A stretch of DNA of 42,647 nt from Crocinitomicaceae bacterium. GTDB taxonomy: Bacteria; Bacteroidota; Bacteroidia; Flavobacteriales_D; CAJJDF01. Below are positions 1,939 through 32,968 of this stretch, one piece after another. The DNA lies in assembly GCA_024639505.1 (NCBI GenBank), contig JAHEIE010000015.1, positions 1-42,647 of the forward strand, written 5' to 3'. The translations under genes and the position numbers were made by a program. Under the pieces are notes generated by a model, which worked only from the letters and a program-made list of their open reading frames with translations, was not told the DNA's origin and ran no database searches. Numbering within the stretch: position 1 is the stretch's first letter; every line of letters begins with the position of its first letter.

Positions 1939-3777
1939 ATGCAAGAAAACAACTTCCTGAAATTCACAAAACAAGTAGTACACAACATGCCAGTAGATTG
2001 GCTTACTCTTACTACCCACAGACTAGATATTTACAACGAGTCGAAAGCTAAAACTGAGTTTTTGGAACAATTTGAAGTATTATTTGCTCAAAACAATTCG
2101 GAGGAGAATGAATTGATGGAACTCCCAACTGCTTACGATTACATCCGACTGGGACATCCTTTGTCTTGTGTATTGGAATGGACGCTTGCCAGAACTCACA
2201 AATTGAATCCACAAAGCGTAATTAGTTTCTCTTCGGAAACTGCTCCTGTATTATCCGTGTTGAGAACCAATTTATTAAAAAATAAAAATACACTCGTTGC
2301 CTATTTCAGCAGTCTTCCCAAGGGATTTGATGAAGTAGCAATTAAAAAAATATATGGGTACAAATTTGAGACACAAAAAGTATCAAATCGATCAGAAATA
2401 AAAGATTTTGAGGGAAGTGTATTATACATTTCCGAAGAAACAGATGATTATTCGGTATTTAATAACATTGACTTTCATGTTTCTATTCAATCTGGATTAG
2501 GAAGTATGTTGTTTATTCTGGGCGAAAACAAGGATTATGTCTCTGACATACAACATGTAAGAAGAAGAGAAACCATTGCTATGACTCCTTCTAATTCTCT
2601 GATTGCATTGAACATCCTTCTAGGAAATACATCAAAAAGCACATCCAATTCGAACAGGGCTACTAACAAATCAAGTGTAATTGCTTCTATCAAAGAAATA
2701 ACGGGAACCCAACTAGAACCAACAGTTGCTTCTAGTGGTTTATCCATGCAATATGCCATCATGATGGGATTGATAGATCATGCTCAAGAAAATCATCCCG
2801 ACAAGGGAATTAGATTTGTGGTGCCAACAAATTGCTATGGAGGAACAAACGATCAAGCACGAAGAGTAGCAGCCTGTTTAGATAATGTAGAAGTGGTAGA
2901 TCTGGCTGTTGATGGAGACAACGATATGGTACAAAGCATCGATGTAGTTTTAGAAAAAATTGCAAAAGAAGACGCTATTCCTTACATTATTGCAGAAATA
3001 CCAACCAATCCTCGAGTAGAAGTTCCTGAATTGGAGCAGCTAAAAATAGTTTTGAGCAAAACTAGACAAACTGCCCAAGGAAATAAAGCTATAGATTCTG
3101 TCTTTATTTTGGATCAAACTTTTTGTCCTAATATTCATTTCTTAGGCGAAGGAGAAATATTATCTACTGTAAGAGCAATTTCTTATGCCAGTGGATCTAA
3201 ATTCCCGAGTGGAGGAAAATGTACAGCGGGATATTGTGCAGGAAACAATTTTTCGGGAGAATTAATGGAAAAAATTCATCTTCATTTAGCAATTTGCGAC
3301 AATGAAGCTACCGATTTACAATACGAAATATTGGCAGCTCAATTGCCTTCAATGAATCAAAGAATTGCAGATGCTTACACCAACACAAGAGAGTTTGTAA
3401 ACTTTATAAAAGAACATTTACCAGAGGCGAAAATCAATTTTGTATCCGAAGAATTGGCAAAAGAAGGGTTCACTCCTTCAGTATTTTCATTGGATTTGCC
3501 TACTAAAGGAAATTCTCCAGTAGAAAGAGAAAACTACAAACGAGAATTGAACTTGGTGCTGATAAACAAAATGATTACCGAAATACCAACCGAAAGTAAA
3601 TATTGCGTGAGCTATGGACAGTTGAAAGGATGTTATTGGACCATTCCAGCAACATCTACCCAAGGAACAACCAAAGAAGGTGACAAAGATTACATTGCAC
3701 GAGTTGCTCTTTCTGGAAATATGGATTTAGAAAAACACAAAGCAGTCTTTTTGGATTTTGTGAATGGGATTAGTTAA
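1939..3777 (+). CDS. PLP-dependent Cys/Met-metabolism family enzyme, long form
   Basis: A 612-residue protein. The C-terminal two thirds follows the fold-type I Cys/Met-metabolism pattern (cystathionine gamma-synthase/beta-lyase relatives): the segment SYASGSKFPSGGK at residues 415-427 matches the SxTKxxxGH lysine site, so K421 is the likely PLP lysine, and ILDQTF upstream resembles the strand carrying the pyridine-binding Asp. Classical family members are about 400 residues; here roughly 200 extra N-terminal residues of unassigned role are present. The exact substrate cannot be read from sequence; a sulfur amino acid or O-acyl-homoserine-type substrate is an inference. It starts at ATG with an AAGGCTAAG stretch upstream. 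The final 63 bp recur at 6986-7048 beyond the rhodopsin module. Confidence 0.75.
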   Translation: MQENNFLKFTKQVVHNMPVDWLTLTTHRLDIYNESKAKTEFLEQFEVLFAQNNSEENELMELPTAYDYIRLGHPLSCVLEWTLARTHKLNPQSVISFSSETAPVLSVLRTNLLKNKNTLVAYFSSLPKGFDEVAIKKIYGYKFETQKVSNRSEIKDFEGSVLYISEETDDYSVFNNIDFHVSIQSGLGSMLFILGENKDYVSDIQHVRRRETIAMTPSNSLIALNILLGNTSKSTSNSNRATNKSSVIASIKEITGTQLEPTVASSGLSMQYAIMMGLIDHAQENHPDKGIRFVVPTNCYGGTNDQARRVAACLDNVEVVDLAVDGDNDMVQSIDVVLEKIAKEDAIPYIIAEIPTNPRVEVPELEQLKIVLSKTRQTAQGNKAIDSVFILDQTFCPNIHFLGEGEILSTVRAISYASGSKFPSGGKCTAGYCAGNNFSGELMEKIHLHLAICDNEATDLQYEILAAQLPSMNQRIADAYTNTREFVNFIKEHLPEAKINFVSEELAKEGFTPSVFSLDLPTKGNSPVERENYKRELNLVLINKMITEIPTESKYCVSYGQLKGCYWTIPATSTQGTTKEGDKDYIARVALSGNMDLEKHKAVFLDFVNGIS

Positions 3778-3810
3778 ATAATCACTTCTATTTCTTAATT
3801 TAATTTGTTG

Positions 3811-3818
3811 TAATTTCG
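3811..3818 (+). promoter_or_regulatory. Possible -7 box of the small ORF/crtY-blh unit
   Basis: The sequence TAATTTCG differs by one base from the Bacteroidota -7 consensus TAnnTTTG and lies 36 bp before the ATG of the small ORF at 3854. No convincing -33 element is visible. This is a weak assignment. Confidence 0.3.
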
Positions 3819-3853
3819 AAAGAGTTGAAAAAAATAGTGTTGACTCATTAACA

Positions 3854-4015
3854 ATGCAATTATTACGAAATTTAATAACCTTTCAAAAATATCTACTTCA
3901 CCCAATGCAGTTACATGCATTGGAAATCTATAATTTTTTAAATCAACGAAAAGATATAGGTCATTCTCGTTTTGTGCGGATTATAATTAACTTCTTTAAA
4001 CAAATAGCGTTTTGA
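3854..4015 (+). CDS. Small 53-residue ORF coupled to the crtY-blh fusion gene
   Basis: An ATG-started frame of 53 codons fills the gap before the fusion gene and ends in TGA at 4013-4015, so that its last bases and the TTG start of the fusion gene share TTGA (4012-4015). That geometry is the usual one for translational coupling, and the downstream gene has no ATG or GTG alternative nearby. The product is basic and rich in Leu, Ile, Phe and Asn (it begins MQLLRNLITFQKYLLHPMQL and ends FFKQIAF), probably helical. I recognise no family. It may be a real small protein, a translated leader peptide, or a chance frame in A+T-rich DNA. Confidence 0.45.
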   Translation: MQLLRNLITFQKYLLHPMQLHALEIYNFLNQRKDIGHSRFVRIIINFFKQIAF

Positions 4016-6027
4016 GCCACATTTCATCACACTCTGAATCTAACTATTTCGATCTTGTGTTTGTCGGCTTTGGCGCAGCCAATTGTTTACTATTACTGCA
4101 ATTAATTGAAAAAGGAATTTTAGATGGAAAAAAAATAGGAATTATTGAGCCGGAAGTTAAAAACAAAAATGACAGAACATTTTGTTTTTGGTCTACGGAA
4201 AAAGAATTAGAGGAACTAAATTTAACAAAATTAGTAAGTCATAGCTGGAATAAAATTGAAATTGGAGGGGTGAGTGAAGCCAATATTCAACCGATGAATT
4301 ATTGGCACGTAAAAGGAATTGATTTGTATGATTTAACAAGAAAAAAACTATTACGGTTTGACGTAAGTTTCATCACTTCTTTTTTATCAAAAGTAGAGAA
4401 AATTGACTCGAAGAACTTTCTGTTGAGTATTAATGAAGGTAAGGTTTTAGCAAAAAATGTTTTTGATAGTAGACCGCCAGAATATTGCAAACCAAAAAAA
4501 AATGAAAGTCATATTTTTCAATCTTTCTTTGGATGGAAAATATCAACTAAGGACGACTGTTTTGATTCAGACAAAATGGTTATGATGGACTTTAATGTTC
4601 CTCAAGGAAACTTTACTCAGTTTGTTTATGTGTTGCCATTTGATTCAAAAAATGCTTTAATTGAGTTGACGCGATTCGGAAGTGAAAAAATATCACTTGA
4701 AAAGGCCAATGAAATACTTAATGAATATCTAAAATCTATAAGTAAAGATTATATAATCAATGAGATTGAAAAGGGAGTAATTCCAATGTCCAGTGCGCAG
4801 ATTAAGTCAGAAACTTTAGGCGATAATTGGAGAAACATGGGAGCTCGAAATAATAAAGTTAAATGTACAACGGGTTTTGCTTTTCATGATATGGCAAAAG
4901 AGGCGAAATTAATATCTCAGCATTTTCCTAAAAAAGAAAGCTTAAATAGAAATAAACTGAGGTTTGCTTTTTATGATCGTTTATTACTCAAGATCTTGTT
5001 AGAAAATCCGGAAAAAGGTAAAGAAATATTTGAAATACTTTTTTCAAAAGTAAAAACTGCAAGGGTTCTAAATTTTCTTCAGGAGAGAACCACATTTTTA
5101 GAGGATATTTTGTTGTTTTCAAAATTACCTAAAATGATTTTTATTAAAATGGCAATTAGGGATTTTGTGTTTCAAATACAAAAGCGACCCATTGTATTAC
5201 TTCCCTTTTTTTTTACTCTTTTTTCATTATTTTTATATTGGCTTGAATTAAGTAATTTAATCATAGGAATTTTGCTTTTAGGATTTTTTACGATAGGACT
5301 TTCTCATGGTGCGTTAGATCACCTTACAACGCTCAAAGAAATATCTTATTCAAGCCTAGTTAAATTTTCTTTGTTATATATTTTAAAGGCATTATTATAT
5401 GGAGGAATTTGGTATGTGCTCCCTGACCTTGCACTATTTGGTTTTTTAATTTATTCTGCCTTTCATTTTGGTCAAGCAGATTTTAAAGAATGGAACATAA
5501 AAAGTAGATTTCACTCATTTTTTTGGGGATCAATTGTTCTATCCCTTATTTTGTTTTTTCACATAGAGGAATTTTATACTATCCTTAACCAAATACCAGG
5601 ATTTGCAAATGAGTTTATAGAAGTAATAAGTCAATCAAGCGCCTTAATTGTAATTCAAATTCTAACCCTAATCTTAGGTTTTATATTAGGTTTACGTTAT
5701 AAATCAAAAGGTATAGCAATCAGTTTAATTTATTTGGTTCTTTCATCTTTTTTGCCTGTCATGGTAAGTTTTGGTATTTATTTTATCTTCCAGCATAGCA
5801 AAAATGGCTGGAAACATTTGAAACAAGGGTTAGGATTTGGTTCCAGAAAACTTTTTTTATTATCTCTTCCCTTTAGCTCGTTGGCTACTCTAACAATTGT
5901 GCTTGCCTTTTTTGGTTTAAAAACCGACCAATGGGGTGTGTTTTTTATAATACTATCTTGCCTTAGTCTTCCACATGTTTTTTCGATGCATCATTTTTAT
6001 ATTCAAAACAGAAAAAATAAGGTATAA
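4012..6027 (+). CDS. Lycopene beta-cyclase / beta-carotene 15,15'-dioxygenase fusion (CrtY-Blh)
   Basis: One 671-residue frame carries two enzymes. Residues 1 to about 383 are a CrtY-type lycopene cyclase: FAD-binding VGFGAAN (18-24), acidic strand end IIEPE (44-48), NDRTFCFW (53-60), the FFGWK signature near 172, FVYVLPF near 205 and GVIPMSS near 256. From about 390 to 671 it is a polytopic Blh/Brp-type enzyme with its histidine motifs: SHGALDHL (near 431), FHFGQADF (near 484), QHSKNGWKH (near 593) and LPHVFSMHHFY (near 652). The junction contains no stop; in-frame ATGs at 5134 and 5149 could allow separate Blh synthesis. The start must be TTG at 4012: an in-frame TAA lies at 3997 and no ATG or GTG precedes the Rossmann motif. 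Predicted activity: lycopene to beta-carotene to two retinal at the inner membrane, serving the rhodopsin next door. Domain calls are strong; activity of both halves is inferred. Confidence 0.93.
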   Translation: MSHISSHSESNYFDLVFVGFGAANCLLLLQLIEKGILDGKKIGIIEPEVKNKNDRTFCFWSTEKELEELNLTKLVSHSWNKIEIGGVSEANIQPMNYWHVKGIDLYDLTRKKLLRFDVSFITSFLSKVEKIDSKNFLLSINEGKVLAKNVFDSRPPEYCKPKKNESHIFQSFFGWKISTKDDCFDSDKMVMMDFNVPQGNFTQFVYVLPFDSKNALIELTRFGSEKISLEKANEILNEYLKSISKDYIINEIEKGVIPMSSAQIKSETLGDNWRNMGARNNKVKCTTGFAFHDMAKEAKLISQHFPKKESLNRNKLRFAFYDRLLLKILLENPEKGKEIFEILFSKVKTARVLNFLQERTTFLEDILLFSKLPKMIFIKMAIRDFVFQIQKRPIVLLPFFFTLFSLFLYWLELSNLIIGILLLGFFTIGLSHGALDHLTTLKEISYSSLVKFSLLYILKALLYGGIWYVLPDLALFGFLIYSAFHFGQADFKEWNIKSRFHSFFWGSIVLSLILFFHIEEFYTILNQIPGFANEFIEVISQSSALIVIQILTLILGFILGLRYKSKGIAISLIYLVLSSFLPVMVSFGIYFIFQHSKNGWKHLKQGLGFGSRKLFLLSLPFSSLATLTIVLAFFGLKTDQWGVFFIILSCLSLPHVFSMHHFYIQNRKNKV

Positions 6028-6030
6028 AAA

Positions 6031-6064
6031 AAGCGCGAATCTTTCGAATCGCGCTTCTTTTTTG
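6031..6064. terminator. Bidirectional terminator between crtY-blh and proteorhodopsin
   Basis: The inverted repeat AAGCGCGA (6031-6038) with TCGCGCTT (6049-6056) is flanked by an A tract on the left and a T tract on the right, so it can end transcription of both convergent genes. It lies wholly in the 51-bp gap between the two stop codons. Confidence 0.85.
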
Positions 6065-6078
6065 TTAATACTAAATTA

Positions 6079-6810
6079 CTAAGCGTTGCTTGCTGATTTC
6101 TTTACTGCTAGTGAGTATATCACTAATCCGAAACCAATTTTATTAATTGCATCCGCAATATTGTAAGCTACATCTATATTTCCTTCTGGCATAAAACTAC
6201 TGTACCATCCAGTTGTTCCCATCATGTATCCTATTGGGTAAATTGCCCAACCTACAAGAACGAACCAACATAAAATTTTGTGAGCTTTTAAGACATCTCC
6301 ACCAGCTGCTACAGCTAATTTCTTTGCACTTCCCAACCAAATTTCGTAAACAATGTAGAAATACGCTGCTCCTGAAATGAATCCCCAGAAAGCCGCTTGA
6401 TCTTTGTAAACTGCCTCTCCGAAATAACCTGTTACTAGCATGATTACAGAAAATACAATCATTTTCCATAGTAATGCGGGTTTAGCACCAGCTACCTTTA
6501 GTATTAAGAAAAACTCAACACACATCAAAGGAACTGTTAGAATCCAATCTACATATCTGAAGAATGTTGGTGATTCAGCATGTGCCGCCCAATAGTCTCT
6601 CATGTAGAAGTAATGTACCGCTGCTATAAAGGTTATTAAACCAGATACCAGTACCGAAGTTCTCCATTTTTTATCAAATTGGTTTAATGATAAAAAGAAG
6701 AATGCTGCTGCAGCCATCATGGCCATGCAACCGACAAAAAAGGTAAACCCTACATAATCAGTTGGGTCGAGTTTAGAGACCATACCAAAGGTCATTTGTA
6801 AATTTTCCAT
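6079..6810 (-). CDS. Proteorhodopsin, green-tuned light-driven proton pump
   Basis: A 243-residue microbial rhodopsin with seven membrane segments. The pump triad is present as D88, T92 and E99 in helix C (DWILTVPLMCVE), equivalent to D97/T101/E108 of proteorhodopsin, so outward proton pumping is expected. H66 matches the Asp-partner H75. The retinal Schiff-base lysine is K224, with D220 four residues before it. The tuning position (105 in proteorhodopsin) is M96, as in other Bacteroidota green-absorbing pumps. Helix E carries W142-G143; by eye this glycine falls where xanthorhodopsin has the glycine that opens the carotenoid-antenna pocket, but that needs alignment. The gene is tail-to-tail with crtY-blh, which should supply its retinal. 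The start is ATG at 6810. Confidence 0.97.
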   Translation of the reverse strand: MENLQMTFGMVSKLDPTDYVGFTFFVGCMAMMAAAAFFFLSLNQFDKKWRTSVLVSGLITFIAAVHYFYMRDYWAAHAESPTFFRYVDWILTVPLMCVEFFLILKVAGAKPALLWKMIVFSVIMLVTGYFGEAVYKDQAAFWGFISGAAYFYIVYEIWLGSAKKLAVAAGGDVLKAHKILCWFVLVGWAIYPIGYMMGTTGWYSSFMPEGNIDVAYNIADAINKIGFGLVIYSLAVKKSASNA

Positions 6811-6861
6811 AGTTATTAGTTTGTTTGTTTAATCAAATTAACAAAAGATTAAACTAAAAAA

Positions 6862-6869
6862 CAAATATT
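6862..6869 (-). promoter_or_regulatory. Possible -7 box of the proteorhodopsin gene
   Basis: On the minus strand AATATTTG differs by one base from TAnnTTTG and lies about 50 bp upstream of the rhodopsin ATG. I see no clear -33 element. Low confidence. Confidence 0.25.
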
Positions 6870-6951
6870 TACTAAAAAATTGTTAAAATTTGATTTTTGG
6901 TTGGAATAAATTAATTTATTACAGGTGTAAAACAACCAATAAGTTGGGTTT

Positions 6952-6959
6952 GTATATTT
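6952..6959 (+). promoter_or_regulatory. Orphan TATATTTG promoter-like box
   Basis: A perfect TAnnTTTG match on the plus strand. The only thing downstream is the 27-codon remnant frame starting at ATG 6965 and ending at 7048. It may be chance in A+T-rich DNA. Confidence 0.25.
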
Positions 6960-6985
6960 GAAAAATGCATGATTTTATATGTTTC

Positions 6986-7048
6986 GGAAAAATGGATTTA
7001 GATAAACAAAAAGCAGTCTTTTTGGATTTTGTGAATGGGATAAAGTAA
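6986..7048 (+). pseudogene. Duplicated 3' end of the PLP-enzyme gene
   Basis: These 63 bp match 3715-3777, the end of the PLP-dependent enzyme gene, at 57 of 63 positions by my count, in the same orientation and including the TAA stop. The encoded tail (GKMDLDKQKAVFLDFVNGIK) differs from the intact tail by N to K, E to D, H to Q and S to K, so this is a diverged homologue and not an assembly echo. It sits 8 bp from the stop of the next convergent gene. An in-frame ATG at 6965 would give a 27-residue peptide; whether it is translated is unknown. Confidence 0.9.
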
Positions 7049-7056
7049 CAAATCTG

Positions 7057-7827
7057 TTACAGCCTTCTATTCCCAATCATTTTTGAAATTAGTTTGTACA
7101 ACTCACTTAATTCTTTATTGTCTTTAAGAATTTCGAGGTGATTATTCATTGTGAATGTATCGCCCCTCAATGCAGGCCCAGTTTGATTGTCAATCGCTTT
7201 ACCTGTATTGTTTTTCTCAAATACTTCTTTGATTAATGGTTGCAATAAACTAAAATCTACTCCTTGGTTTTCGCATAAATCTTGCCCTATTACTTGCATG
7301 AAATTGGCGAAATTACATACAAAAACAGCTGACAAATGGAGTTTTTTCCTTTGTTCAGATGAGAGCTCAATGACTCTGTTCGTTAATTTTTGAGCTAAAT
7401 CAGAAAGGTTTTTTAAGCTTTTTTCATTATTTGCTTCAATGCAAATTGGGATTTCGGTAAAATCGGCCTGGTGATTTTTTGTAAAGGTTTGTAACGGATA
7501 AAAACTACCAAAGTTAGAGGATGTAGAAATAAAGGAATCAATCCCAACACTTCCTGAGGTGTGAACCACTAATTTGTTGCCCAACTTCAATCGATTCCCA
7601 ATTTCGGTAATCGAATTGTCAGTAGTAGCCAGAATATATAAATCACTTTTCTTGTTTATTTTGTCAAAATCATCAGTATGCTTAGCGTTTAGTTTTTCGG
7701 CTAAATATTTAGCATTCTTTATGCTTCTGCTGTACACATCAACCACATTCAAACCAGCCGAAACAAGAGCTGCTCCCAAGTTGTGAGCAACGTTTCCCGA
7801 ACCGATAAGTGTGATGTTTTGTATCAT
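7057..7827 (-). CDS. NAD(P)-binding, DUF2520-type dehydrogenase-like protein
   Basis: A 256-residue protein with a Rossmann nucleotide-binding start (ITLIGSGNVAHNLG, residues 4-17) and a C-terminal half typical of Rossmann-like/DUF2520 proteins (LSAVFVCNFANFMQVIGQDL; then TGPALRGD). These resemble the ProC/ketopantoate-reductase fold; the substrate is unknown. The frame extends upstream to 7896, but ATG at 7827 is chosen because the Rossmann strand begins directly after it and because it overlaps the ccmF stop as ATGA (7824-7827), which indicates translational coupling. Its stop lies 8 bp from the duplicated PLP gene end. Confidence 0.85.
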   Translation of the reverse strand: MIQNITLIGSGNVAHNLGAALVSAGLNVVDVYSRSIKNAKYLAEKLNAKHTDDFDKINKKSDLYILATTDNSITEIGNRLKLGNKLVVHTSGSVGIDSFISTSSNFGSFYPLQTFTKNHQADFTEIPICIEANNEKSLKNLSDLAQKLTNRVIELSSEQRKKLHLSAVFVCNFANFMQVIGQDLCENQGVDFSLLQPLIKEVFEKNNTGKAIDNQTGPALRGDTFTMNNHLEILKDNKELSELYKLISKMIGNRRL

Positions 7828-10580
7828 TTTTCTCTTTTTACTCTGTATATCACGGCCATGATAGAGCCAACTAACATAAGTACCACACCCAACCAAAGTA
7901 AATTGATAAGTGGGAATGTTTTTGCTTGCATGATAATGAATTCTTTCCCTGTAATATCCAACGAAATTTTTCTTGGCGAAATTAATGTGGAATCTTCTGT
8001 GTAGGTAGGAATAGATATTCCCATCAGCGCAACTTTCATTCCGTAATCTTCATCTATAACTGGTAATGGGGGTTTCAAAGAGGAATCTTGCTGAATCAAA
8101 TACACCAAAGTTTGTTGTTTAGCTTCCATTTTTTGTTGGTAATCCACAAATTTTAAATTCACAACACCTGCTTGGCTATTTCCTTCGTAAGGAAACTGCT
8201 GATTGTTTTCCACGATCACCATTCCGTGAGTTGTAACAATGGTATCTCCCACCTCAGCAATGTAGTTTTCGTAAGGCATATAACCGTCATTTTTTCCTTC
8301 GAATATAGCTGGATCTGGATATTTAATGTGTGAAAACACATCGTGACCTGCATAATGTTTAGTAGAAGGTTCGGCCACATTTCCAAATCTCTCGTTCAAT
8401 TGAACAAATGGAGTTAACGTAAATTCTTTGACTCCCGGACGATGACTTTTCCATGCTTTTGCCAATGAATCGGGACCTACAAGCTGCCAGTATTTAGCAT
8501 TTCCTGCGAAAAAATCTTTGGTTACCTTATGCGATTCTTTGGCTTGGTAATATTCTCCAAAATACTCAACTACAGTACCTTTTTCGTATGAAATAGGTTC
8601 GGGTTTAAAATAATCTACTTCGTAATAAATATTAATCCCTTCTTGTCTTCTGCTTCGGTACGACACAAAATATTCTCTCATGTAATTGGTGTCTCCCAAT
8701 GTAATTTGAACATCTTCGTTGTTCTTGAATGTTTCGCTCAATGAGGCTAAATCAAATTTCCCGCCCTTGTTATGAGATAATTTTTTACTTTGAGAATTAG
8801 AAATAAGTGCTCCAAACAAAATTAAGCCAAAACCGATGTGCGCTATGGAAGCTCCTGCAAAATTGAGTTTTCCTTTCAGAAAACGCACAAAGTAATCCAT
8901 ATTCCCAACTACTGCATAGATAGAAGTAAAAAGCAAGGCTATGTAAACAAGAGTTTCTGCCGATGCAAATTCTAAGCCATCAAATGTAAATACCATCAAA
9001 CTAATTGCTGTGAGAACCCCAGATACGATAAATGACAAGGCTATGTTTTTGAAAAATAATTTGGCTGGCATTCCTTTGTATCTCAAGAATTGGCCAAAAC
9101 CAACAAAAAGAGTCACAAAAACAGCAAATGCACCTTGGCGAATGTTGTAATGCTGCAATACATTTTCTTTTCCTGCAATGTCTGTTCCAAATAATCTATT
9201 CCATACAGGAAATGAATTGTCTACAAATATTTGGATACAAGCAATGAACAAAACCAAACTACCCATAAACATCCAAAACTCTCTGCTCCACAATTTGTCT
9301 TCTGTTTTTGCTTTCGGAAAATTTTTGATTGAAGCAATCACAACAAAAACCAATGTAGCGATAGTTCCCAAAATGAATACAATTCCTGTTGCAGGAATTC
9401 CTGCTACTAAAGTTGCACTATCGGCAGTTAGTGTCATCACAAACAAAAAGATAGAAATTACGGTGTACATCAATCTGTGTTGTTTTCCTTTGAGTAGCAT
9501 AAAGACTGATAGCCAAACAAAAAACAAAATGTACAGCAGCAATTGGCTTAACATTCCATTGTCTGTGAATGAATGAACAGAGCTATCGCCCAGCACTCCA
9601 CTTTTGGTCAAAAAAGTAGAGTATAAAACCAAAATAAACGATAAGAAAGTAAGAATGTAAGTAAAAAACAAAGAGCTTCCTTTTCGTTGATTTGCCAACA
9701 TCAAATGCCCTGCGCCTACCAAAGTCAACCAAGGAATATAAGAAACATTTTCGACTGGGTCCCAAGCCCAAAACCCTCCAAAACTAAGAGATTCATAAGC
9801 CCACATTCCTCCCATCAAAATTCCTACTCCCAGAACACCAACTCCCAAGAAAGTCCAGGTGATTGTTTCTTTAATCCACTCGTTCAGTTTGTTTCGCATA
9901 AGACCAGCAATGGCATAAGAAAACGGAACAACTGTTACTGCAAATCCGAAAAATAAGGTTGGAGGATGAATCACCATCCAATAATTTTGCAACAATGGAT
10001 TAAGTCCTTGACCATCCTTAAACATTGGTAGTTTAGAAACGTAATCTTTCATTTCTGTCCAAGGTAATCCAAGGTTTTCTGGTAGATTTTTGATAAGAAG
10101 AAAAACGTTGTTTCCAATTTTGAAATCAAAAATAAAGATACCTAGCAACATAGAATTCAAGAATACCTGAGAAAGAACAAATATTGTCATGACGGAGGCT
10201 TCCCATTCTTTGGCTTTTTTTATCAAAACATTCCCAATCACTACATTCCAGAACATCCAAAGCAAGAAACTACCTTCTTGACCTCCCCAAAAACAAGAAA
10301 TCAGGTATTCTAGTGGCATGGAATCATTGGAGTATTTCCATACATAGTGAAACTCATAAAAATGTCCATAAATCAATACATACAAAAGTGTAACAACACC
10401 TAACAAGCCAATAGAATGGATTCTGAAAGAGAGGCGACCTGCTTTTTTCCACTGAGAAGAAAGTGCTACATCATTTGAGTTTCGAAACGAAAAAAAATAG
10501 GAAAGCGCTGAAAATATTGCTGTTACGAAAGAAAAAAATACTAGAAAGTATCCAAAATTACTTAAAAATGTATGTTCCAA
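7824..10580 (-). CDS. ccmF: Cytochrome c biogenesis protein, CcmF/CcsA family
   Basis: A 918-residue polytopic inner-membrane protein of cytochrome c maturation that handles haem and delivers it to apocytochrome c. The family marks are GGQEGSFLLW (about residues 98-108), NPLLQNYWMVIHPPTLFFGF (about 195-215, with the conserved His) and the tryptophan-rich haem motif GGFWAWDPVENVSYIPW (about 267-284). About 250 C-terminal residues after the main membrane block form a soluble region before a last membrane helix. The start is TTG at 10580: an in-frame TAG lies upstream and no ATG is available near the first membrane segment. A minus-strand TATATTTG box lies 23 bp upstream. The 3' end overlaps the DUF2520 gene by 4 bp. 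Confidence 0.92.
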   Translation of the reverse strand: MEHTFLSNFGYFLVFFSFVTAIFSALSYFFSFRNSNDVALSSQWKKAGRLSFRIHSIGLLGVVTLLYVLIYGHFYEFHYVWKYSNDSMPLEYLISCFWGGQEGSFLLWMFWNVVIGNVLIKKAKEWEASVMTIFVLSQVFLNSMLLGIFIFDFKIGNNVFLLIKNLPENLGLPWTEMKDYVSKLPMFKDGQGLNPLLQNYWMVIHPPTLFFGFAVTVVPFSYAIAGLMRNKLNEWIKETITWTFLGVGVLGVGILMGGMWAYESLSFGGFWAWDPVENVSYIPWLTLVGAGHLMLANQRKGSSLFFTYILTFLSFILVLYSTFLTKSGVLGDSSVHSFTDNGMLSQLLLYILFFVWLSVFMLLKGKQHRLMYTVISIFLFVMTLTADSATLVAGIPATGIVFILGTIATLVFVVIASIKNFPKAKTEDKLWSREFWMFMGSLVLFIACIQIFVDNSFPVWNRLFGTDIAGKENVLQHYNIRQGAFAVFVTLFVGFGQFLRYKGMPAKLFFKNIALSFIVSGVLTAISLMVFTFDGLEFASAETLVYIALLFTSIYAVVGNMDYFVRFLKGKLNFAGASIAHIGFGLILFGALISNSQSKKLSHNKGGKFDLASLSETFKNNEDVQITLGDTNYMREYFVSYRSRRQEGINIYYEVDYFKPEPISYEKGTVVEYFGEYYQAKESHKVTKDFFAGNAKYWQLVGPDSLAKAWKSHRPGVKEFTLTPFVQLNERFGNVAEPSTKHYAGHDVFSHIKYPDPAIFEGKNDGYMPYENYIAEVGDTIVTTHGMVIVENNQQFPYEGNSQAGVVNLKFVDYQQKMEAKQQTLVYLIQQDSSLKPPLPVIDEDYGMKVALMGISIPTYTEDSTLISPRKISLDITGKEFIIMQAKTFPLINLLWLGVVLMLVGSIMAVIYRVKREK

Positions 10581-10602
10581 TTTGATAGATTTTTGTTGAC
10601 TA

Positions 10603-10610
10603 CAAATATA
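10603..10610 (-). promoter_or_regulatory. -7 promoter box of ccmF
   Basis: On the minus strand TATATTTG fits the Bacteroidota -7 consensus exactly and lies 23 bp before the TTG start of ccmF, giving a short leader. Confidence 0.5.
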
Positions 10611-10705
10611 GGGAATCAGGAATTGAGAAAAGGTATTTTGAACTGATTAATACTCTTTATTATTTTATATCAAGTGGATAAGGTGTTAATTAGTTAAGAT
10701 GAGGA

Positions 10706-11572
10706 TTATGGCTTTAGTTCGCCAAAAATCTCTGCGGCATGCTCAAAAATAATAAGATGACCCTCATCTTCATAGAGTTTCAATTCGGAGTTTCTGCACT
10801 CGTTCGTCATCAATTCAGCCCATTGATAAGGCACATTATTGTCTTCTTTTCCTTGCCAAAACTGAACTCTTCCTTTTATCTCTTTCAATTCAAAACCCCA
10901 TTTTTCCACCAAAATAGTTGAGATTTCGTGAGCAACTCCTTGGCTACCATTTCTAAAAGACTCCTTGAACATAGATTCAATCACTTCCATCACTTTTTCA
11001 TTTTTCAAAACCACCTGGTCAGGTTCGCTCATTATCTGCAGGAAATTTTTCAAGGCTTTTTTGGGCTTTTTTGCCAATTGTTTAGCTTGTACTTTCAATA
11101 AAATTTTCAATAAAAACGGCATTGATTTTGCCAAACTCAGCATAGTTTTTACCTCTTTCGAAAGTACTTTCTTACTTTCGGTGGTTAGTGGCGCAAATCC
11201 ACTAATGATTCCTGTTTTGTGAATTTTTTCAGGAAATAAATACGAAAAACCGAGTGCAAATGGCGAGCCTGCCGACATGCCAACAACAGAGTAGGAGGCT
11301 AGCTCCAATTTCTCGGTAAGTACTTTTAAATCTTGAGCAAAACTTAAAATTGTTCCTGCAGGATTAAAATCAGAGATTCCGTGCCCCGGTCTGTCCACAG
11401 TGAGTATTCTCAATTCTTTTTCTTTCGCAAACGAAAGGTTATAGTGCATTTCCAATCTAGAACTTTGTGAACCATGACAATAAAGAATCGGAAAACCTGC
11501 GGGGTTTCCATATTCGGCAAATCCTAGTTTACGATTGTCTGGCAAAATGATGTGTTGTTCGGTTGGTTTCAA
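10706..11572 (-). CDS. Alpha/beta hydrolase
   Basis: A 288-residue alpha/beta-hydrolase fold protein. It shows the oxyanion-hole strand YCHGSQSSR (residues 30-38), the Asp-rich DRPGHGISDF segment, the nucleophile elbow GMSAGS (serine near residue 98), and a terminal DEGH supplying the catalytic His. Substrate unknown. No signal peptide, so probably cytoplasmic. The start is TTG at 11572; an in-frame TAA lies 21 codon-bases upstream and the next ATG is well inside the fold. It is divergent from the FAD oxidoreductase gene with a 170-bp gap. Confidence 0.85.
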   Translation of the reverse strand: MKPTEQHIILPDNRKLGFAEYGNPAGFPILYCHGSQSSRLEMHYNLSFAKEKELRILTVDRPGHGISDFNPAGTILSFAQDLKVLTEKLELASYSVVGMSAGSPFALGFSYLFPEKIHKTGIISGFAPLTTESKKVLSKEVKTMLSLAKSMPFLLKILLKVQAKQLAKKPKKALKNFLQIMSEPDQVVLKNEKVMEVIESMFKESFRNGSQGVAHEISTILVEKWGFELKEIKGRVQFWQGKEDNNVPYQWAELMTNECRNSELKLYEDEGHLIIFEHAAEIFGELKP

Positions 11573-11712
11573 GAGTACTGAATTATTGGAAAATTATATC
11601 ATTTCCAGTTAGTTAGTTTAGAATACAAAGGTAAGTAAATTTCAGTTTTTCAAGATTTCTAGATACTTAGATTTCATTTTTTTATTTCCATCCTTCTCAC
11701 CTTAACAAGTTT

Positions 11713-11720
11713 TATATTTG
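11713..11720 (+). promoter_or_regulatory. -7 promoter box of the FAD oxidoreductase gene
   Basis: TATATTTG fits the TAnnTTTG consensus exactly and lies 22 bp before the ATG at 11743. Confidence 0.55.
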
Positions 11721-11742
11721 TAACAGAAAAAATTAGAAAACA

Positions 11743-12987
11743 ATGGAAAAAAAAACTCATACAATTCATATTATAGGTGGCGGAATAAGTGGACTTGTAG
11801 CAGCACAAGTACTCGAAAATCATGGTGTAAGCCCCGTAATTATAGAGGGTACAGACAAAGTAGGTGGCAGAGTGAAAACCGATACTGTAAATGGATATAA
11901 GTTAGATCATGGATTTCAGGTTTTGCTTACTGCATACCCAGCAGCCAAACAATACTTGGATTACGATTGTCTAGATTTACAAAAATTTGTTCCTGGTGCT
12001 TCAATTTTTAAAAATAAAAATCAAAAAATAATTGGAGATCCTCTCAGAGATATATCCTTGATTTTTTCTACTCTATTTTCAGGAATTGGTACTGTTTCCG
12101 ACAAAATAAAAATAATGAAACTAAATACCTATTTGAAAAAGAAAAGCATAGAGGCGATTTTTGAAGAAAAAGAAGATAATACTTTCAATTATCTCAAGAA
12201 TTACGGCTTTTCGGAAGGAATGATTGCTGATTTTTTTACACCATTTTTTAGTGGGATTTTTCTCGAAACCAAACTCGAAACATCCAGCCGAATGTTTGAG
12301 TTTGTATACAAAATGTTTGGCCAAGGAGCTGCAGCAGTTCCAAAAGGAGGAATGGAAGAAATTCCTAAACAACTGAAAAAGAATTTGAAGAACACAAAAT
12401 TTCTATTCAATACCAAAGTGTCAAATGTAAAGGATGGAAAAATCAAATTGGCAGACGGAACCGAAATCCCTAGTGAATATACTATTATTGCTACCGAGCC
12501 AAGTAAGTTAGTTTCTAATTTGGCAAATCAATCTGTTGAGTGGAAATCGTGCGATACTTTGTATTTTAATGCTCCCAAAAGAATCATCAAAAAGCCACTT
12601 ATTGGACTCGTTCCTGATAAAAATTCGTTAATTAATAACTTGTTTTATCCAACAAGTTTAGCCACTCAACCAGGTGGAGTGGAAGAACTACTGTCTGTAA
12701 CGGTGATAAATAACAAAGGAATGAATGACGAAGAATTGACCAAAAAGGTGCAAAATGAACTCTCTGAGCTATGCGAGATTCGCGATACGCAATTCCTGAA
12801 ATTGTATAAAATCCCAATGTCTTTGCCTGATTTGAGAGATTTACGTTATTCGATTTTACCCTCAGAAACTCACCTTTCGTCAGGAATTTTGTTGGCTGGC
12901 GATACTCAGCTCAATGGTTCTCTCAATGCCGCAATGATTTCAGGTGAAAGAGCGGCTTTGGCTGTTGTACAGGCTTTGGATAATTAG
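11743..12987 (+). CDS. FAD-dependent amine-oxidase/desaturase-like oxidoreductase
   Basis: A 414-residue flavoprotein with the dinucleotide-binding motif IIGGGISGLVAA (residues 9-20), the following acidic strand end VIIEG, and the amine oxidase/phytoene desaturase signature VGGRVKTDTVNGYKLDHGFQ (residues 41-60). The C-terminal GILLAGDTQLNGSLNAAMISGERAA is the FAD ribityl-binding motif of that superfamily. It is close to protoporphyrinogen oxidase and plant-type phytoene desaturase relatives, but I cannot name its substrate. It lies 5 kb from the carotenoid fusion gene, which is not enough to call it a carotenoid enzyme. A good -7 box precedes the gene. Confidence 0.85.
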   Translation: MEKKTHTIHIIGGGISGLVAAQVLENHGVSPVIIEGTDKVGGRVKTDTVNGYKLDHGFQVLLTAYPAAKQYLDYDCLDLQKFVPGASIFKNKNQKIIGDPLRDISLIFSTLFSGIGTVSDKIKIMKLNTYLKKKSIEAIFEEKEDNTFNYLKNYGFSEGMIADFFTPFFSGIFLETKLETSSRMFEFVYKMFGQGAAAVPKGGMEEIPKQLKKNLKNTKFLFNTKVSNVKDGKIKLADGTEIPSEYTIIATEPSKLVSNLANQSVEWKSCDTLYFNAPKRIIKKPLIGLVPDKNSLINNLFYPTSLATQPGGVEELLSVTVINNKGMNDEELTKKVQNELSELCEIRDTQFLKLYKIPMSLPDLRDLRYSILPSETHLSSGILLAGDTQLNGSLNAAMISGERAALAVVQALDN

Positions 12988-31166: not shown

Positions 31167-31174
31167 TATATTTG
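31167..31174 (+). promoter_or_regulatory. -7 promoter box of the acyltransferase pair
   Basis: TATATTTG fits TAnnTTTG exactly. It overlaps the TTG codon at 31172, so that codon cannot be the start; the ATG at 31184 lies 9 bp downstream, giving a very short leader. Confidence 0.5.
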
Positions 31175-31183
31175 TTTCTTATT

Positions 31184-32083
31184 ATGGGCTCAAAAATTTT
31201 ATATTATTTACTGATTAAGCCAATTTCATTATTGCCTTATTTTGTGCTATATCGTATTTCTGATTTAGTTTTTTTGATAACCTATTACGGTTTTGGTTAC
31301 AGAAAAAAAGTGATTAGGAATAATATCAATAATTCGTTTCCAGATCTATCGGAAAAGGAAAGAAACAGAATCGTAAGGAAATTTTATCTCCATTTTTGTG
31401 ATTTGATTTTAGAATCGGTAAAGAACTTCTCAATTACATCCAATCAGGCAAAAAGAAGAATGAAATTTGAAAACATTGAGTTGCTCAATGAATATTATAA
31501 AAAAGGTAAGTCTGTAATATCTATTGGTGGTCATTATGGGAATTGGGAACTCTTTGCAGTGGCTGTCGCTAATGCTTCTAAATTAAAACAACTTGCTATT
31601 TACAAGCCACTTTCTAATGCTTTTTTTGATAATAAAATGAAATCGAGTAGAGGTAAATTTGGACTTGAAATGATTCCAATGAAAGAATCGAAATTATATT
31701 TTGAGAAAAAAGATAAAACACCAAGAACAATCATTTTTGGTTCAGATCAATGGCCTTCTAAACCAGAACGAGCTATTTGGGTGAGTTTTTTGGGAAGAGA
31801 AACGCCATTTTTATTCGGGGCAGAGAAGTATGCTAAAGAATTTGATTGGCCAGTAGTGTATTGTGAGATTATAAAAGAAAAAAGAGGGCACTTTATTGCA
31901 AAGTATCACAAACTAACAGATACACCAAGAGAAGTAAAAGAAGGAGATATAATTAAGGATTATGTGCAAATGTTAGAGAAGACTATTCAAAATGAGCCCG
32001 CATACTGGTTGTGGTCGCACAAAAGATGGAAGAAAACCAAAGAGGAAGTTTTTGAATCTGAAATCAATCATGGAAAAAATTAA
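31184..32083 (+). CDS. LpxL/HtrB-like lipid A acyltransferase, copy 1
   Basis: A 299-residue membrane-anchored acyltransferase. A hydrophobic N-terminus (ILYYLLIKPISLLPYFVLY) precedes an LPLAT domain with the catalytic HX4E motif at H117-E122 (GGHYGNWELF) and the downstream FGSDQWPSKPERAIWVSFLG segment. The family adds secondary acyl chains to lipid A or related lipids at the inner membrane. ATG at 31184 matches the start of the paralog that follows 9 bp later. Confidence 0.9.
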   Translation: MGSKILYYLLIKPISLLPYFVLYRISDLVFLITYYGFGYRKKVIRNNINNSFPDLSEKERNRIVRKFYLHFCDLILESVKNFSITSNQAKRRMKFENIELLNEYYKKGKSVISIGGHYGNWELFAVAVANASKLKQLAIYKPLSNAFFDNKMKSSRGKFGLEMIPMKESKLYFEKKDKTPRTIIFGSDQWPSKPERAIWVSFLGRETPFLFGAEKYAKEFDWPVVYCEIIKEKRGHFIAKYHKLTDTPREVKEGDIIKDYVQMLEKTIQNEPAYWLWSHKRWKKTKEEVFESEINHGKN

Positions 32084-32092
32084 AAACAACAC

Positions 32093-32968
32093 ATGGGAGC
32101 TGTCCTTTATTATTTATTTATTTTTCCAATTTCGATTTTGCCTTATTTTTTATTGAATGCAGTTTCTACTTTCATTTACTGGATATTGTATTACCTTCTG
32201 GGTTACCGAAAGTCTGTTGTAACAGAAAATATTTATTCTTCATTTCCTACTAAATCCAAACAAGAATTGGATGATATTGTGAAGGGATTCTACAAGTATT
32301 TTGCTGATCTGCTGGTAGAGGTTTTTAAGAATTTTACTATTTCTGAAAAAGCAATAAAGAAACGAGTGGTTTTTGAGAATGTTGAGGTTTTGAATACATT
32401 ACACGACCAGAACAAATCGGTAATTATTGCAACCAGCCATCAAGGCAACTGGGAGATGCTTGCTATGGCTATTGGAGATTTGGGCAAACACAAACAAATG
32501 GCAATTTACAAACCATTGAAGAATAAATTTTTTGATAACAAAATGAAAGAAACCAGGCAGAAATTGGGATTAGAGATGTTTCCAATGTCAGATACAATCA
32601 AATATTTCAAGAAATCGTTTCCTTCTCCTGTTTCTATTTTCTTTGCTTCGGATCAGTGGCCATCGAATCCAAAAAGAGCCCATTGGACTAAGTTTTTGGA
32701 AAGAGATACACCTATATTATTGGGTGCCGAGCAATATGCAAAGTTATTTGATTGGCCGGTTGTGTATTGCGAAATGATAAAAACTACACGAGGTCATTAT
32801 TCAGTAAGATTTGAAACCATAACGGAAACTCCCAAGGAAATGGAAAAAGGTAGGATTATGGATGATTATTGTGAAAAATTAGAGAAAACGATCCAAAGAA
32901 ATCCAACGGATTGGCTTTGGTCGCACAGAAGATGGAAACGAACCAAAGAGGAAGTGTTTGCTGATTAA
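32093..32968 (+). CDS. LpxL/HtrB-like lipid A acyltransferase, copy 2
   Basis: A 291-residue paralog of the preceding gene, aligned over the full length: hydrophobic start (LYYLFIFPISILPYF), HX4E at H116-E121 (SHQGNWEML), FASDQWPSNPKRAHWTKFL, and WLWSHRRWKRTKEEV at the end. The proteins share most motif residues but differ widely elsewhere, so the duplication is old and the two may transfer different chains or act on different positions. Nine bp separate it from copy 1. Confidence 0.9.
   Translation: MGAVLYYLFIFPISILPYFLLNAVSTFIYWILYYLLGYRKSVVTENIYSSFPTKSKQELDDIVKGFYKYFADLLVEVFKNFTISEKAIKKRVVFENVEVLNTLHDQNKSVIIATSHQGNWEMLAMAIGDLGKHKQMAIYKPLKNKFFDNKMKETRQKLGLEMFPMSDTIKYFKKSFPSPVSIFFASDQWPSNPKRAHWTKFLERDTPILLGAEQYAKLFDWPVVYCEMIKTTRGHYSVRFETITETPKEMEKGRIMDDYCEKLEKTIQRNPTDWLWSHRRWKRTKEEVFAD

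Follow-up and report, generated by a model that had tools for sequence, protein, structure and literature searches.

Rhodopsin modules have a patchy distribution, and it is rare to catch the DNA events by which they move. The locus described here, within a window of 42,647 nucleotides (the whole stretch of DNA analysed) from a marine Crocinitomicaceae bacterium, raises the question of whether one such event has left its trace, as a proteorhodopsin gene and a retinal-making enzyme gene lie between the 3' end of a PLP-dependent enzyme gene and a second, orphan copy of that gene end. A sequence-only reading of the window had taken this repeat as the scar of the module's arrival. The genome under study (G000) was compared with three others of the same genus (G001, G002 and G003) and two of the same family (G004 and G005); searching a second genome collection with ccmF brought in no further congeners, only more distant relatives.

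Organization of the locus

The features on which the argument rests are as follows (window coordinates, strand, description).

1939-3777, +, PLP-dependent enzyme gene, an intact ORF of 612 aa with homologues in 19 of 60 relatives
3715-3777, +, left repeat copy, the functional PLP 3' end, whose final two codons (ATT AGT) are probably derived
3854-4015, +, 53-aa ORF, probably no gene; dissimilar to the G003 ORF in the corresponding position (p = 0.86), no Pfam match
4012-6027, +, crtY-blh, predicted fused lycopene cyclase/beta-carotene dioxygenase, retinal-making (Pfam Lycopene_cycl 2.4e-44, BCD 3.5e-31)
6079-6810, -, proteorhodopsin (Pfam Bac_rhodopsin 1.8e-40)
6811-6880, -, rhodopsin upstream region, probable promoter; 83% conserved with G003
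6881-6985, no strand, 105-bp stretch matching none of the compared loci, flanked by the right copy and the probable rhodopsin promoter
6986-7048, +, right repeat copy, an orphan PLP gene end lacking the remainder of the gene; Gln replaces an invariant His
7057-7827, -, Rossmann/DUF2520 protein gene, convergent with the right copy (Pfam DUF2520 3.8e-33)
7824-10580, -, ccmF/nrfE-like cytochrome c assembly gene, accompanying DUF2520 in six of six family genomes

The translated rhodopsin carries the Asp-Thr-Glu pump motif (RYVDWILTVPLMCVEF) and a Met at the spectral-tuning site; together with the retinal-making enzyme, a rhodopsin with this proton-pump motif makes the locus a proteorhodopsin light-energy module. 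The same genes make up the proteorhodopsin and crtY-blh modules of marine Flavobacteriales. Of 299 genomes from the order, more than 60 have the crtY-blh fusion, and the form found here is 70% identical to that of G003 and at most 41% identical to any other; the rhodopsin gene is convergent with it in these two genomes, whereas the two genes are in tandem in G039 and G057. The sequence-only reading had placed a small ORF between the repeats along with crtY-blh and the rhodopsin gene; the latter two stand, while the ORF is doubtful as a gene, not being conserved in G003. The PLP protein gave no Pfam family or NCBIfam match above cut-off, a weak match to cystathionine beta-lyase (TIGR01329) falling far under it, and has no sequence-detectable relative in the PDB. 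Its 612-aa family is patchily distributed in the order.

A PLP gene end repeated in direct orientation

Alignment confirmed that the last 63 bp of the PLP gene recur in direct orientation 8 bp from the end of the DUF2520 gene. The two copies match at 57 of 63 bases, with mismatches at repeat positions 6, 18, 24, 57, 59 and 60 and an exact core of 32 bp; the ungapped alignment of 3715-3783 with 6986-7054 gives 88% over 69 bp. The match is well above chance expectation in the whole genome (E = 1.5e-19), which holds two copies in all and no third. No comparable dispersed repeat came up in the 514 kb made up of the window and related DNA, the other dispersed matches being paralogous or internally repetitive genes and an 80-bp near repeat in L108. 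As the sequence-only reading had it, the left copy closes an intact gene and the right copy is an orphan, and the 8-bp spacing follows from the stop codons, that of the right copy ending at 7048 and that of DUF2520 occupying 7057-7059.

The similarity stops sharply 5' of position 6986 (p = 0.25) and is unconvincing beyond the stop codon (p = 0.09). The PLP sequence just 5' of the repeat is among the best conserved of the protein, yet it is absent beside the right copy, so that this copy would either never have contained more of the PLP gene or have lost the rest cleanly.

The right copy has a Gln where all 19 PLP homologues compared have His, and a Lys at a position where none of 18 other PLP genes has one; because of these two residues it no longer looks selected as PLP sequence. 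Its terminal codons, ATA AAR TAA, are those of the sister species G003 and are probably the ancestral state, which makes the ATT AGT of the left copy the likely derived one, although this polarity rests on few sites (six differences in a 63-bp alignment). Each copy differs from the G003 PLP end at 16 sites, the two copies differ from one another at 6 of 63, and about three changes are assigned to each. Third codon positions account for five of the six differences (p = 0.018). The change from His to Gln shows decay of the right copy after the event that produced it, so that the identity of roughly 90% does not purely reflect divergence between donor and recipient, as had been supposed.

The right copy has no visible function. 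A part in rhodopsin expression was weighed but discounted, since the conserved 70 bp beside the rhodopsin gene are the likely promoter, some 105 bp away from the copy, and the copy itself is not conserved. A simple consensus scan of the rhodopsin upstream region found no perfect promoter.

The module is probably older than the repeat

In G003 a single contig carries the PLP and crtY-blh genes facing the rhodopsin and DUF2520 genes, in the same order as in G000. A second contig shares the DUF2520 end with minor differences and runs on into ccmF; G003 is a metagenome-assembled genome with strain variation and overlapping contig ends at this locus. The gap between its rhodopsin and DUF2520 genes lacks a second PLP gene end (local alignment p = 0.54), and its whole genome contains its own PLP gene end only, with no remnant of the right copy. 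Since the module occupies the same position in both species, it most simply predates their split and would be ancestral to both.

The gene comparisons made all pair G000 with G003. The two group as sisters in both the PLP tree (100/100) and the rhodopsin tree (99/89); the G003 thrS product is 98% identical over 348 aa matched, against 88-89% for G001 and G002, and the crtY-blh identities pair the same two genomes. Congruence of this sort is half of what that reading had itself set against its model. Differences between G000 and G003 at fourfold sites amount to 0.47-0.62 in the PLP, crtY-blh, rhodopsin, DUF2520 and ccmF genes, which is near saturation. A recent transfer of the rhodopsin gene, as its 97% protein identity to G003 might imply, was rejected: rhodopsin fourfold sites differ at 47%, so that the protein identity reflects constraint. 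Windowed identities along the PLP gene gave no usable mosaic signal at the divergence of G000 from its relatives.

Against silent sites this close to saturation, a non-coding copy still about 90% identical to its partner must be younger than the split of the two species, and hence than the arrival of the module. The exception would be gene conversion between the copies, which could hold them similar and give an old repeat a young appearance. The probability of six or fewer differences in 63 positions is 3e-6 at an expected divergence of 35% and 0.002 at 25%; with silent sites saturated, the age so obtained is a bound and not a date. The scar thus most likely records an event later than the acquisition of the light module, and a repeat that bounds a cassette need not date the arrival of that cassette.

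Surroundings of the PLP and DUF2520 genes in other genomes

The tight tail-to-tail spacing at the right copy had been read as the remains of an ancestral PLP/DUF2520 neighbourhood, to be sought in rhodopsin-free relatives. None of the relatives examined has a module-free, directly convergent PLP/DUF2520 pair. G002 has the order ccmF, DUF2520, KdsC-HAD, M61. Its PLP gene lies some 8 kb off, is oriented towards DUF2520 and at the 3' end overlaps a gene for an M24 peptidase; the G002 rhodopsin gene is at another location without crtY-blh. KdsC-HAD likewise follows DUF2520 in G004 and G005. G001 (90% completeness) has neither the PLP gene nor a rhodopsin gene, and its DUF2520 gene lies tail to tail with a gene for an FG-GAP protein at 4 bp. 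Nor was the same insertion site found elsewhere, the PLP gene being followed in 17 other genomes (G002, G004 and G005 included) by ordinary genes that change from nearly every genome to the next, and never by DUF2520. Neither a module-free allele nor a donor was found among the three congeners.

Each of the four species of the genus has a different gene on the 3' side of DUF2520 (window 7049-7059; L087:5664-5669; L085:6620-6640; L083:9000-9600), suggesting that this side of the gene is prone to turnover. Comparison with G003 (L083, L084) shows an inversion: the block running from the PLP gene through the module and DUF2520 to ccmF (window 1939-12987) has the opposite orientation with respect to the adjoining hydrolase and amine-oxidase genes. 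The G003 alpha/beta hydrolase gene (L083:3151-3970) is in two reading frames and is probably a pseudogene or the product of a sequencing error. On contig C55 of G003 (L175:5428-6135), a tyrosine recombinase-like gene, named from its sequence alone, lies directly upstream of KdsC-HAD, where G002, G004 and G005 have DUF2520.

Origin of the second gene end

Taken together, we consider that the second gene end is probably a real, recent and lineage-specific recombination scar beside an older module. As to how it arose, our preference is more tentative, at slightly under an even chance: we infer a single crossover in the PLP end between incoming DNA and a module-free allele. DNA from a closely related strain would have carried a PLP gene end together with the module; the recipient allele would have been free of the module, its PLP and DUF2520 genes tail to tail; one crossover within the PLP end would have joined the two, and the old PLP end would have been pushed downstream, to decay there. 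Recombination between the copies would conversely remove the module and rebuild a complete PLP gene. The crossover is favoured because the right copy runs to the PLP stop and lies 8 bp from DUF2520, which random local duplication would produce only by chance; this placement and the retention of the ancestral last codons indicate that the right copy may be a genuine old PLP gene end. What survives of the sequence-only reading is therefore narrower than its original form. Recombination of the module into a resident PLP gene, with displacement of the old end, agrees with the ancestral codons, the 8-bp spacing and the third-position bias, and would describe a crossover, recent and within the G000 lineage, of an allele with the module and one free of it; as a record of the module's arrival it is not supported, G003 having the module without the repeat.

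The most serious alternative, to which we give a lesser but real chance, is a partial duplication in place, in which template switching or repair copied some 63 bp of the PLP end 3.2 kb downstream, where the copy then decayed, with neither transfer of the module nor a module-free allele. Such a duplication takes one event and requires no unseen genome, it accounts for the module standing at the same place in G003 without the repeat, and about three changes per copy fit an equal time since duplication. It leaves to chance, however, that the copy ends at the PLP stop so close to DUF2520 with ancestral last codons kept, and the preponderance of third-position differences is more like the divergence of two coding genes.

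That the module left the repeat behind when it first inserted into an ancestral PLP/DUF2520 pair now seems improbable. The repeat does bracket the module exactly, and the tail-to-tail spacing is as that model would have it, but the module lies at the same place in G003 with no repeat, the copies are far too similar for an event older than a nearly saturated split (gene conversion aside), and PLP/DUF2520 adjacency was seen in no module-free relative.

An island placed at the PLP end by a site-specific recombinase, leaving direct repeats of the attL/attR kind, is very unlikely. The anatomy is classic, with a complete target gene end on one side and a displaced end on the other, as in tyrosine-recombinase islands at gene 3' ends, in which the target end is rebuilt and the displaced one lies at the far side. 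Against this, no integrase was found among the window genes searched (Pfam, NCBIfam), neither in nor next to the insert, and no tRNA; the repeat is 63 bp long at 90% identity rather than a short exact core; and the other genomes compared have no insertion at the PLP gene end. An assembly artefact, in which two strain haplotypes were stitched together in a metagenome-assembled genome, might be entertained on the grounds that G000 is a draft of 119 contigs and that the related G003 assembly varies by strain at this locus, but is scarcely credible given that nothing else resembles the sequence at the 6985/6986 junction, that no shared stretch is visible to drive a false join, that the copies differ at six sites and that the flanking gene order is the same in G003.

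Comparison with known insertion systems

Among element classes, the locus resembles a scar of the Campbell type, left by a single crossover, in that the insert lies between direct copies of a shared segment. In E. coli, integration of re-circularised DNA by a single crossover produced lacZ-end duplications of 109-950 bp flanking the insert (PMC3240628); the likeness lies in an insert placed between a gene and a second direct copy of part of its end, but those duplications came from conjugation experiments, whereas the G000 repeat is natural, 63 bp long and 90% identical. Homology-facilitated illegitimate recombination (HFIR), characterised by microhomology of 3-10 bp at its illegitimate junction, shares with the G000 locus homology on one side (the PLP end) and none visible on the other. 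HFIR usually removes a length of DNA similar to that inserted (PMC3240628), whereas G000 has one piece twice. A transposon with a target-site duplication fits poorly, the repeat being of 63 bp at 90% identity and the window genes searched (Pfam, NCBIfam) including no transposase.

Significance of the locus

If a module-free allele exists, gain and loss of phototrophy without an integrase could be tested directly at this locus; if there is none, the locus amounts to a small duplication of a gene end with no wider importance. It is conceivable, if doubtful, that populations of this species are polymorphic for the light cassette; homologous recombination at the PLP end, with no integrase involved, would add and remove it, and phototrophy would vary from strain to strain with the host gene unharmed. 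The finding is modest and mostly ordinary, and its value hangs on the existence of module-free strains.

Rhodopsin genes related to that of the window were seen in two further settings. The rhodopsin of G041 (L088:10079-10798), a genome of another family, falls inside the rhodopsins of the genus (97/92), pointing to transfer between families. An IMG/VR contig (L177:6848-7567) encodes a rhodopsin 76% identical to that of the window, with no other window gene nearby; a scan of viral contigs with the PLP protein gave no match. Elsewhere in the window, positions 1-1831 hold a gene of in-frame 180-bp tandem repeats (seven copies) cut by the contig start, and positions 31172-32968 a tandem duplication of two adjoining homologous genes with about 68% DNA identity.
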